A program made the position numbers and the translations under genes. 41,214 bases of DNA, taken from the IMG/VR virus record IMGVR_UViG_3300050015_000175, positions 1-41,214 of that record; one strand, written 5' to 3'. The DNA is from a virus. A model generated the notes under the pieces. That model was given only the letters and a program-made list of their open reading frames with translations. It was not told the origin of the DNA and did no database searches. Positions 9,261 through 32,902 of this stretch are shown here, piece by piece. Position 1 is the stretch's first letter. Each line of letters starts with the position of its first letter.

Positions 9261-9350
9261 TCTCGGTGAGCCTTTTTTATTTTACCCTGCTCACGCCCTA
9301 TGAGCAGATCTTCTCGGTGAACTTTCTTTTTACTCACGTTCTATGAGTTC
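9260..9350 (-). repeat. Two tandem antitoxin repeat units
   Basis: Unit one spans 9311-9350 and unit two 9260-9310 (reading leftward). They share the loop TAGnnCG, an A-rich spacer and the 3' block TCACCGAGAA, and differ in stem length (5 versus 7 bp) and linker length. Divergence with preserved pairing argues that RNA structure, not sequence, is selected. Confidence 0.75.
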
Positions 9351-29684: not shown

Positions 29685-30173
29685 ATGGCTGATAGAGGTA
29701 GACCGACATTATATAAAGATGAATATGTAAAGCTTGCATATAATTATTGTTTGTTGGGTGCTACTGATGCAGATATGGCTAAATACTTCGATGTTGATGA
29801 GAGCACTGTTAATAATTGGAAGAATGAACATGAAGAATTTTTAGTGTCCATAAAAGAAGGAAGAATAGAAGCTGATACAAAAGTAGTAAAAAGTTTATAT
29901 AAAAGAGCCATCGGCTACGACCAAAAGACAGATAAAATCTTTCAATTTCAAGGCGCACCGGTTGTGGTTCCTACAATAGACCACATCCAACCGGATACCA
30001 CAGCACAAATATTTTGGCTTAAAAATAGGCAGCCAGTTAAATGGCGTGACAAAATCGAGGTTGATCAAAACATTACTGGTGATTTTGCTATCAACATCAA
30101 TGTAGTAAACCTTAATGATTTGCATAAACAAGACACATTACCTGCAAAAAAAGACGTTATATTGATAGATTAG
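29685..30173 (+). CDS. Terminase small subunit
   Basis: This 162-residue protein has an N-terminal DNA-binding helix-turn-helix (GATDADMAKYFDVDESTVNNWK), a central oligomerisation helix (about 60-75), and the family's AQIFWLKNRQPVKWRDK segment near residue 105. It recognises the packaging site and hands phage DNA to the large subunit. The last codons cross a run of seven A; a -1 shift there would replace the last six residues by 35 more in-frame codons that read like protein (see findings). Confidence 0.85.
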   Translation: MADRGRPTLYKDEYVKLAYNYCLLGATDADMAKYFDVDESTVNNWKNEHEEFLVSIKEGRIEADTKVVKSLYKRAIGYDQKTDKIFQFQGAPVVVPTIDHIQPDTTAQIFWLKNRQPVKWRDKIEVDQNITGDFAININVVNLNDLHKQDTLPAKKDVILID

Positions 30174-30659
30174 AGCAACATTATGTCAACAAAATACTTG
30201 CAAGTGCTATAGATGGCATAGCTAAGCCAATGTGTATTCGACAAAAGAATGATTTTGTATAAATCAGAGAAGGTCAAATTTAAAACTGGAGGTTATGACT
30301 TGCAAAAGCAGCATAGCATACTGCCTATATAGCATAGCATGCAAGCAGCAAGGCAAGCCATGTAGTGCAGCACATCAGGCATACAACACCATCTATATAA
30401 TGTAGCGTCCTGCTGCTGGTTGGCTCACATATTGCACCACACAGACCCCGGGGGGATAGCAAGAAAGACCCACCCGCCTCACAGTCAGATACATATACAT
30501 CACCACCCACAAAAATTCAAATTCTACAAAAGTTATAACAGTTTACTTTTTTATTCCAACCCTCTCTCTCAACCCGTGACAATTTGTCACACATTAATTA
30601 ACTTTCAAATCAGTCGGCTACAAATTGTAACCTACTCAATATCTGAAATAATTTTCTAA
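30174..30659. other. Gene-free region upstream of the ncRNA; candidate packaging site
   Basis: There is no convincing gene. The stretch includes the possible frameshift extension of the small terminase (to 30262), a 10-bp direct repeat AGCATAGCAT (30310-30319, 30331-30340), a strikingly G/C-rich spot GACCCCGGGGGG near 30443, a C-rich/G-poor segment (30460-30575), and a 15-bp palindrome GTGACAATTTGTCAC (30576-30590). Location between the terminase genes makes it a candidate pac or cos site. Function not proven. Confidence 0.45.
30625..30652 (+). promoter_or_regulatory. Possible promoter of the large structured RNA
   Basis: TTGTAA (30625-30630), 16-bp spacer, AATAAT (30647-30652), placing a start near 30659-30662, right at the 5' arm of the long-range closing helix. 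Moderate match only. Confidence 0.5.
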
Positions 30660-31325
30660 GTAAATTCGTATGTGGTGGCGGAATAGGTAGACGCAATTAC
30701 GATGTGTGAGAAATCACACTAAGAAGAGCTGCAAGGTGACAGTCCACAAATCCTTGCCCACATACTTATTTTATACATTTGGACTTCGCTGATAATCAGC
30801 GTTTGCATACTTATTTTCAATCGTAAAACTATTTTCATCCCTTTAGTGGTCGGGGTTATGACCACCCCAAGCGGGGGCAGATTCAAAGATATGTCAGGAT
30901 AAGTCCAGATGTCTGCCCCACAAAACTTTATATCAAATGTTTGTTGTTTATCAGTATCAACTAAAAAAACTGTATCAATGCATCCGCTCCCCGATATGCG
31001 GAATATAAAAGGTCGGGTTCAAATAGCAAATACGAATTGTCTGCCTGTCGTCTGGCGACTAACAAATTGACGACTTGAAATAAAGGAATGCACAACATTG
31101 CACATAATACAGGCCGAATATGTACGACAAAGTCAGAATCTATTGTCGGTAAGTTTTATGTGGGGAGCAATTGACATTTTAACTTTGTCTGTCGATTGCA
31201 TGTTAAGTACGGTGGGGACTTAACGCAAATTAAATATCAAGTGGCCTGCTCCCGAACACGGAGCCTCCACAACAAAGCCGCTATATGCGGTAAGTGGGGT
31301 ATGGCTTAGGCTGTATCCCTTTTTA
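30660..31325 (+). ncRNA. Large structured phage RNA, about 660 nt (GOLLD/ROOL-like class)
   Basis: A gene-free stretch between the terminase genes is packed with helices. Domain one (30663-31038) is closed by a perfect 9-bp helix, AATTCGTAT with ATACGAATT. Inside are a tRNA-Leu-like D-arm (GCGGAATAGGTAGACGC), a CGCTGA/TCAGCG hairpin (near 30788), GTGGTC/GACCAC (near 30846), GGGGCAGA/TCTGCCCC (near 30874 and 30912) and a T-loop-like GGGTTCAAAT (near 31015). Domain two has GTCGTC/GACGAC, CGACAA/TTGTCG, GTTAAGT/ACTTAAC and GGGAGCA (31163-31169) with TGCTCCC (31247-31253). It ends in an intrinsic terminator. Length, phage location and ornate fold recall GOLLD and ROOL RNAs, but family membership is untested. 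Confidence 0.7.
31296..31324 (+). terminator. Intrinsic terminator of the structured RNA
   Basis: GGGGTA (31296-31301) pairs with TATCCC (31314-31319, one G-U) and is followed by five T residues. It defines a 3' end for the RNA about 15 bases before the large terminase frame opens. Confidence 0.65.
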
Positions 31326-31339
31326 TATTGTAAATCAGC

Positions 31340-32902
31340 GTGCATAACTTGTCGCAATATTTTAGCACGTTTTATTTAGGCAAGTTTAACGGTGTCTTTC
31401 GCCACAGCAATAAACCGTTGCCCAACAGGGCTAAAGGAGTTGATAATACGGCAAGTAATAAAGCTAATAACGATATTAATTTTGACGTATTCCCTAATCA
31501 ACTTCTTTTTATGCAGTCTACTGTTGATGAAGTCTTGTATGGTGGAGCGGCGGGGGGTGGTAAAACTTTTTCGCAAATAATGGATGCTTTTATTTATGCT
31601 TTAAAATATAACGGTTCTAAACAGTTAATTCTTAGGCGTACATTTCCAGAACTTGAAGCTTCATTTATTAGAGATAGTTTAGCTTTATACCCAAACGATA
31701 AGTTTAACTATAATCAGTCGAAGCATACCATGACTTTTATAAACGGCTCAATTATAGACTATGGCTTTTGCGAGAGCGAAACAGATGTTTTTAGATATAA
31801 GTCTGCTGCTTATGATGTTATTAGATTTGATGAACTTACAACCTTTACGGAATTTCAGTATACATATCTTATCAGCCGAAACAGGGGAGCGAACAACTTT
31901 CCTAAAGCTATGAAGTCCTCAACTAATCCTGGAGATATTGGGCATGAATGGGTAAAGTCAAGATTTATAGACGGTGTAGAACCTAACAAAATTCAAAGCA
32001 TACCTATGGAAGATGGTTCAATCTCAACAAGATTATTCATTCCCTCAAAAGTAGACGACAATATATTTTTGATGGATAAAGACCCTGCATATAAAAGCAA
32101 ACTTCTACAGTTACCCGAATCCCAAAAGAAAGCCTTACTTTATGGTGACTGGGATATATTTGAGGGGCAGTATTTCAATGAGTTTAGTAAGCAGATACAC
32201 GTATGTAAGCCGTTCCCTATTCCCTCATCGTGGAATAGATACTATATAAACGATTACGGACTTGATGCACTTGCAGGACTATGGATTGCAATTTCTTTAG
32301 AGGGCAAAGCCTATGTTTACAGGGAAATATTCAAGGGCAAGGACGCAAAAGAACAAGATGCCGCTAATGGGTTGATTGTTTCGGAAGCCGCTAAAAGGAT
32401 ATTAGAACTTGAACTTAATGAGCCTAATATTTATTTGAGAATAGCACCGCCTGACTTATGGGCAAGGCGCAGCACAGATGGATTAAGCCCTATAGATCAA
32501 TTTACTAACAGCGGATTGTACTTTCAAAAGGCAGATAACAACAGGGTAAACGGGTGGTACGCTCTTAAAGAATGGCTAAAACCCATTGCAGATGGTAAAG
32601 GAAATACATCAGCAAGACTACAGATATTTGAAAACTGCATTAACCTGATTAGGTGTTTGCCCTTACTGCAATACAGCCGAAAAGATGGCAACGATGTAGC
32701 AACAGAACCCCATGAGATTACCCATTTACCAGATACCTTAAGGTATTGGGCAATATCAAGACCAACAGTTCCAATACCAAACGAGATTGAACCATTGTTT
32801 AGTTTTGCAGAAGAAAGAGAAGATTACCTTAACGCACAAAACCCTTACCGTGATTACGGCGCAGCGGGCATAGATTCAGAATATTTGTATGGAGGATTTT
32901 AA
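31340..32902 (+). CDS. Terminase large subunit
   Basis: This protein has up to 520 residues. ATPase domain: Walker A GGAAGGGKT at residues 68-76, Walker B VIRFDE near 160-165, and SSTNPGD (coupling motif) near 190. The nuclease domain follows from about 300 (NDYGLDALAGLW) to the C-terminal LPDTLRYW. It drives DNA into the procapsid and cuts it. The start is uncertain: the frame opens with GTG at 31340 but has no RBS, sitting directly after the structured RNA's terminator. The first 45 residues do not look like the family, so translation may start at a later non-ATG codon. Confidence 0.92.
   Translation: MHNLSQYFSTFYLGKFNGVFRHSNKPLPNRAKGVDNTASNKANNDINFDVFPNQLLFMQSTVDEVLYGGAAGGGKTFSQIMDAFIYALKYNGSKQLILRRTFPELEASFIRDSLALYPNDKFNYNQSKHTMTFINGSIIDYGFCESETDVFRYKSAAYDVIRFDELTTFTEFQYTYLISRNRGANNFPKAMKSSTNPGDIGHEWVKSRFIDGVEPNKIQSIPMEDGSISTRLFIPSKVDDNIFLMDKDPAYKSKLLQLPESQKKALLYGDWDIFEGQYFNEFSKQIHVCKPFPIPSSWNRYYINDYGLDALAGLWIAISLEGKAYVYREIFKGKDAKEQDAANGLIVSEAAKRILELELNEPNIYLRIAPPDLWARRSTDGLSPIDQFTNSGLYFQKADNNRVNGWYALKEWLKPIADGKGNTSARLQIFENCINLIRCLPLLQYSRKDGNDVATEPHEITHLPDTLRYWAISRPTVPIPNEIEPLFSFAEEREDYLNAQNPYRDYGAAGIDSEYLYGGF

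Follow-up and report, generated by a model that had tools for sequence, protein, structure and literature searches.

A divergent tRNA-like RNA unit, very probably of a phage-borne family, in a non-coding locus between terminase genes

Mimicry of tRNA by non-coding RNAs is a known phenomenon. The stable RNAs of the phage T4 tRNA cluster (species I, species II, RNA C and RNA D), which we take to be stable non-tRNA RNAs, resemble the RNAs studied here by description only. We know of no catalogued family in which a conserved tRNA-Leu-like frame is combined with an interchangeable core that replaces the anticodon. ROOL and GOLLD are large, phage-borne structured RNAs with pseudoknots and nearby tRNA genes (PMC12286853). 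The tRNA-like domain of the bacterial RNA YrlA has been proposed as a possible competitive inhibitor of an anticodon nuclease (PMC7790460).

We analysed a virus record of 41,214 bases (the window), in which the stretch at 30660-31325 lies between the terminase small (terS) and large (terL) subunit genes of a Bacillota-type phage. As with GOLLD and ROOL, this locus is phage-borne, structured, often near tRNA genes and of comparable length (PMC12286853), but it is modular and rearranged, whereas GOLLD and ROOL have one fixed design. The family of tRNA-like RNAs in which we place its 5′ unit resembles class II tRNA-Leu in the D-arm sequence TGGCGGAATAGGTAGACGC, in the acceptor/D/T layout and in a T-loop that adjoins the acceptor. 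It differs from tRNA-Leu in lacking an anticodon arm with a 7-nt loop, in its T-stem (6 bp versus 5 bp) and T-loop (TGCAAAT versus TTCRANY), in a core of 70-150 nt and in having no encoded CCA. YrlA and other bacterial Y RNAs are likewise non-coding RNAs that carry a tRNA-like domain, but the RNAs described here have an acceptor stem, and their frame follows the order found in tRNA. In tmRNA, too, tRNA-like ends are joined to further structured elements, but a D-arm is present here.

Rfam 15 yielded no match in the region at gathering score and, over 30150-31420, none of relevance at E<=10. The initial annotation had suggested membership of, or kinship with, GOLLD or ROOL; neither covariance model matched at E<=10 over 30150-31420, and we abandon that assignment. 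We also rejected a tRNA (no call by ARAGORN or Rfam, and a hairpin with a GAAA tetraloop where tRNA has its anticodon), a tmRNA (no match by ARAGORN across the whole window or by Rfam, and no tag reading frame recognised) and, prompted by the Leu-like D-arm, a tRNA-borne group I intron (no Rfam match). No Y RNA family was among the Rfam matches at E<=10 for the window and one strong family member, the Y RNA models of the library being unchecked. With the region as DNA query, nothing similar turned up in an annotated phage collection, and we found no description of the family in Rfam 15 or open-access full text, a scope outside which lie subscription journals and preprints.

Coding status and surroundings of the locus

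The region is a conserved non-coding structured-RNA locus. It had been described as about 660 nt without a gene between the terminase genes, and this holds: no ORF longer than 55 aa lies wholly inside 30660-31325, and the ORFs tested have in-frame stops or only fragmentary matches in relatives. The region folds more stably than dinucleotide shuffles (z=-3.1; second run, z=-2.8), against z=-0.4, +1.1 and -1.3 for three flanking stretches in the same test. Parts of the locus were identified in seven other viral contigs (L002, L003, L004, L048, L050, L053 and L054) by a terminase search and short patterns. The genes and signals around the locus are as follows:

29685-30173, + strand: terS, terminase small subunit gene (phrog_309, E=2.3e-49)
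30625-30652, + strand: promoter-like site, TTGTAA-16-AATAAT with TG ahead of the second hexamer (consensus scan only)
31340-32902, + strand: terL, terminase large subunit gene (Pfam Terminase_3, E=3e-10; phrog_979, E=8e-45)
31379-31440, + strand: leader with hairpin 31388-31392/31415-31419, a CCC/GGG hairpin and a Shine-Dalgarno-like AAAGGAG by the terL start (motifs conserved in six relatives)

Promoter-like sites occur in the region in about the number expected by chance in the consensus scan, and the site at 30625-30652 is not visible in relatives. In the leader stem 31388-31392/31415-31419, pairing is mostly kept despite changed bases (hand alignment). The start codon of terL is uncertain; compared with the window (31340-31470), L004 (4240-4340) carries an additional base near AAAGGAGTTGATA, and for this reason the GTG at 31340 may not be the true start. 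Between terS and the RNA, 30174-30560 is non-coding, with conservation of about 80-86% in L002 and L004. This stretch, which contains CCCCGGGGGG near 30447, looks like a cos or pac site.

The tRNA-like unit and its phage family

We identified a tRNA-like domain of about 100 nt at the 5′ end of the locus, which the initial annotation had overlooked. In an unconstrained fold, 30667-30766 forms a cloverleaf with these parts:

30667-30766, + strand: tRNA-like RNA domain (covariance model R1, 50.9 bits, E=1.2e-11)
30668-30675/30758-30765, + strand: acceptor stem, 8 bp
30678-30694, + strand: D-arm of Leu type, preceded by TG, a 3-bp D-stem with loop GAATAGGTAGA
30704-30719, + strand: 6-bp GAAA-capped hairpin at the anticodon-arm position
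30731-30757, + strand: T-arm with a 6-bp T-stem and an enlarged loop

Five of the six pairs in the GAAA-capped hairpin are changed on both sides in L050, which is a compensatory pattern. The domain has no encoded CCA.

Similar units, with the T-loop TGCAAAT and a longer core, are found in L016, a related terminase locus, and in L019. The search pattern derived from these two, GGAATAGGTARAC-N70-100-GGTGCAAATCC, matches at least 120 viral contigs; it amounts to about 23.5 fixed bases at 31 gap lengths, and by our estimate far fewer than one match would be expected by chance in 1e11 bases. The family frame consists of a variable yet paired acceptor, a fixed D-loop and the TGCAAAT T-loop, around a hypervariable core. 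Among the matches listed, 94 of 116 copies have all 7 bp of the acceptor paired although the pattern leaves it unconstrained, and GC, AT, CG and TA pairs are all seen at most positions; the 6-bp T-stem is complete in 112 of the 116. In an alignment of 50 sequences with unrelated cores, 95.5% of the frame cells are paired and 213 are compensatory, compared with 34-46% paired in slid controls.

The covariance model R1, built from those 50 sequences from phages other than that of the window, gives 50.9 bits (E=1.2e-11) for the window, 51.1 for L050, 46.5 for L003, 44.1 for L054, 33.2 for L048 and 19.1 for L053. The window score exceeds the level of real tRNA-Leu (24.5-41 bits), as an annotated tRNA-Leu scores a weak 24.5 bits and tRNA-sized genome matches 35-41 bits. 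The paired acceptor of at least 7 bp and the 6-bp T-stem by which we recognise the family are both present in the window (8 bp and 6 bp, unconstrained fold). The T-loop TGCAAAT is not; the window and L050 have an enlarged TG-(8-9 nt)-CAAAT loop. The window core, at about 36 nt, is also below the 70 nt or more of the family, while those of its relatives L048 and L054 are about 90-120 nt. Because of the enlarged T-loop and the short core, we regard the window copy as a divergent member or derivative rather than a typical one. As a statement of structural identity, its membership of the family is very probable.

In the units of L003, L048 and L054 the D-loop lacks GG, and the T-loops, TGGAAGT or TGAAAGT, are missing the C with which GG would pair. 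This hints that a D-loop/T-loop contact may be coevolving in copies of this type, which are few.

The core is exchanged within a conserved frame. Among the matches listed, 101 of 124 copies have cores without clear mutual similarity, and three pairs of loci combine near-identical flanks and the same acceptor with unrelated cores: L085/L086 (flanks 97% and 93%), L144/L166 (95% and 100%) and L082/L130. On average the cores fold more stably than shuffles (mean z -0.59, SE 0.10), and a helix of 6-9 bp at the end of the core, just 5′ of the AU before the T-stem, is present in 49 of 101 cores versus 14 in shuffles. An unrestricted test for a pseudoknot common to all family cores was negative. At one spacing, picked after seeing the data, 9 cases against 3.5 expected are suggestive of a further core pseudoknot. 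Examples that look convincing come from single classes only, with CGGGTG/CACCCG in L116/L142 versus CGAGTG/CACTCG in L125, and a Listeria class recognised by eye. The cores of L095, L079, L105 and L165 include pieces resembling a T-arm, for example GGTTCGAATCC, and look as though built from tRNA parts.

Occurrence of the family and its possible roles

The family is found in Listeria phages (LP-101, P70, B054 and others), in Enterococcus phages (the EFDG1 group and others) and in the Lactobacillus plantarum phages LP65, phiJL-1 and Sha1. Most of the phage matches listed have no annotated feature over the element, and the family is widespread in phages and apparently unannotated. The match in phiFL2A is shorter, with the 3′ portion of the motif lying between ArpU and the terminase and only a partial R1 match. 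Three of 786 bacterial genomes have an R1 match at E<=1e-12, a lower bound with eight candidates scored per genome; this rarity fits a phage-borne element.

Many copies lie between an ArpU/RinA late regulator and the terminase. Among the matches listed, a terminase large subunit was recognised at 40 of 120 family loci; in 39 of the 40 it shares the strand of the element and lies downstream of it, mostly at 0.6-4.4 kb, and an ArpU- or RinA-type late regulator lies upstream on the same strand in 34 of 34 matches among those listed, some loci possibly being in both sets. Copies in EFDG1 and LP65 lie within tRNA arrays. Tandem copies with differing cores occur at L081:12083-12388 and in phage LP65 (L193:2920-3281). 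In Listeria phage LP-101 (L191:3842-4267), the regulator-terminase gap contains rli62, a tRNA-like RNA and mcrA RNA in series.

We propose, with a probability of about 0.5 for the explanation as a whole, that the locus is a non-coding RNA island with a trans-acting tRNA-like RNA made of a frame and an effector or decoy core. The 5′ unit has a frame like that of tRNA-Leu, made up of acceptor, D-arm and T-arm and presumably a D-loop/T-loop elbow, in which an exchangeable structured core replaces the anticodon and variable arms. Most likely the RNA would be transcribed along with the late operon, and it may be trimmed and stabilised via its tRNA-like ends. Lacking an anticodon arm, it is not expected to decode. 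The frame could be recognised by, or compete for, host tRNA-binding factors in trans, and the hypervariable core may offer a surface that acts as effector or decoy and changes in the course of conflict, for instance with host defences by which tRNAs are sensed or cut. Further structured RNA, closed by a conserved terminator-like hairpin, is contributed by the 3′ modules.

A stable, tRNA-handled RNA with a changing domain would be consistent with the conserved frame, the exchanged core and the location in late operons or tRNA arrays, and the copies in the tRNA arrays of EFDG1 and LP65 favour action in trans. As to mechanism, the RNA might compete for, or deceive, host or defence tRNA-binding factors; we consider this the likeliest mechanism and put it forward tentatively. 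To our knowledge, Hughes-type precedents are scarce. By analogy, the competition with an anticodon nuclease proposed for YrlA (PMC7790460) may serve as a precedent for the decoy idea. We also speculate that Bacillota-type phages possess a general cassette-RNA system, in which a tRNA-derived chassis handled by the host as tRNA would carry structured domains swapped against defences; such generality is possible, if doubtful.

Several points argue against the proposed trans-acting RNA. The window copy, with its enlarged T-loop and short core, is degenerate and its role might have changed. Core exchange can also result from neutral recombination at a hot spot. The cores have no antisense signal to their own locus, as the longest complementary match averages 9.5 nt against 9.25 nt for other loci.

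The main rival is a cis-acting element of the late operon that would control terminase-operon transcription, mRNA processing or, like the phi29 pRNA, packaging near cos/pac. We consider it rather unlikely. The constant position and strand of the family upstream of terminase, the location of the window locus between terS and terL, and the hairpins and conserved leader immediately 5′ of terL all suit such an element, but a cis signal hardly accounts for core exchange or for copies within the tRNA arrays of EFDG1 and LP65. The window RNA is, moreover, closed by a terminator-like hairpin, and the next recognised downstream gene in L050 and L054 is not terL.

Downstream modules and the extent of the RNA

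Beyond the tRNA-like unit, the window locus contains the following segments:

30767-31038, + strand: variable middle, with a hairpin near 30790-30810, a GGTC/GACC hairpin, a GGGGCAGA/TCTGCCCC hairpin and a pseudoknot-like element at 30982-31019
31039-31085, + strand: module D, H-type pseudoknot-like, GCC 31043-31045/GGC 31054-31056 crossed by GTCGTC 31047-31052/GACGAC 31069-31074 (pairing by eye)
31086-31237, + strand: module E (about 150 nt), an optional block with about 95% identity in L048, L050 and L054
31238-31325, + strand: module F, with a GTGG/CCAC stem, hairpins 1 and 2, and a terminator-like hairpin with T-run (seven sequences)
31248-31252/31260-31264, + strand: hairpin 1 of module F, compensatory changes at 4 of 5 pairs in seven sequences
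31278-31281/31287-31290, + strand: hairpin 2 of module F, most pairs kept with changed bases (hand alignment)
31296-31319, + strand: terminator-like hairpin and T-run, stem identical in six relatives

The variable middle is replaced or missing in relatives, and its pieces are in altered order in L004. The window and L050 correspond over the full length of the locus at about 73%; their ends align and their middles are unalignable. Pairing in the hairpin near 30790-30810 is kept in L004 and mostly kept in L048 (hand alignment), and the pseudoknot-like element at 30982-31019 was assigned by eye. Module D is nearly invariant in seven sequences, so that its conservation is clear but its covariation is not. 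Module E is missing from L002, L003, L004 and L053. In module F, all 133 cells are paired in the seven sequences. The downstream segments appear to be a set of structured RNA modules, with covariation covering part of them.

True tRNA genes directly follow module F in L003 (Thr) and L050 (Ile), as does a tRNA-Asn recognised by eye in L053. The picture of a structured phage RNA locus near tRNAs, anticipated in the initial annotation, agrees with these comparisons. The individual long helices fared less well. Each is present as complementarity in the window. The 9-bp match 30663-30671/31030-31038 is of a kind expected by chance about 0.8 times per 660 nt by our calculation; the relatives do not conserve it as a long-range helix, and the acceptor stem of the tRNA-like unit, with which it competes, has better support. 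The 8-bp GGGGCAGA/TCTGCCCC pairing (30874-30881/30912-30919) lies in a segment replaced in relatives, and the 7-bp GGGAGCA/TGCTCCC pairing (31163-31169/31247-31253) competes with the covarying hairpin 31248-31252/31260-31264.

Because relatives reorder, drop or interrupt modules, we interpret the locus as an RNA island and not as a fixed 660-nt RNA; in L054, a small ORF with a Shine-Dalgarno sequence lies between the tRNA-like unit and module D with the other 3′ modules. Alternatively, the locus could encode one large, ornate RNA about 660 nt long, GOLLD/ROOL-like and perhaps multimeric, with the tRNA-like part as its 5′ domain. This fixed architecture, favoured in the initial annotation, is improbable. 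It would agree with the full-length alignment to L050 and, as for ROOL and GOLLD, with the 660-nt length, the pseudoknot-like elements and the nearby tRNA genes (PMC12286853), but it does not sit well with the shuffled or split modules, the unconserved middle or the absence of a GOLLD or ROOL match in Rfam. The further suggestion of a new class is supported, but takes a different sense here, namely a tRNA-like family of many Bacillota-type phages together with shuffled small modules.

Chance folding of a degenerated tRNA array is very improbable and, for the family as a whole, already contradicted: true tRNA genes downstream in relatives, the tRNA-Leu-like frame and the T-arm-like GGTTCGAATCC pieces of some cores would suit decay, but compensatory pairing is unexpected under it and yet occurs in 213 cells of 50 sequences, the hairpins of the window locus covary too, and non-tRNA features (the 6-bp T-stem, the TGCAAAT loop and the long core) are common across the family.

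The family is directly testable, as commonly studied Enterococcus, Listeria and Lactobacillus phages carry it, mostly unannotated. It also offers a concrete clue to the reason for the co-occurrence of large phage RNAs with tRNA islands at common loci. If phages do use cassette RNAs of this kind, the window would illustrate the assembly of larger, ornate RNA loci from such a chassis and additional modules.

Elsewhere in the window, the Rfam 6A RNA (RF02925, 61.3 bits) is found at 9261-9311 on the minus strand, beside a serine recombinase gene.
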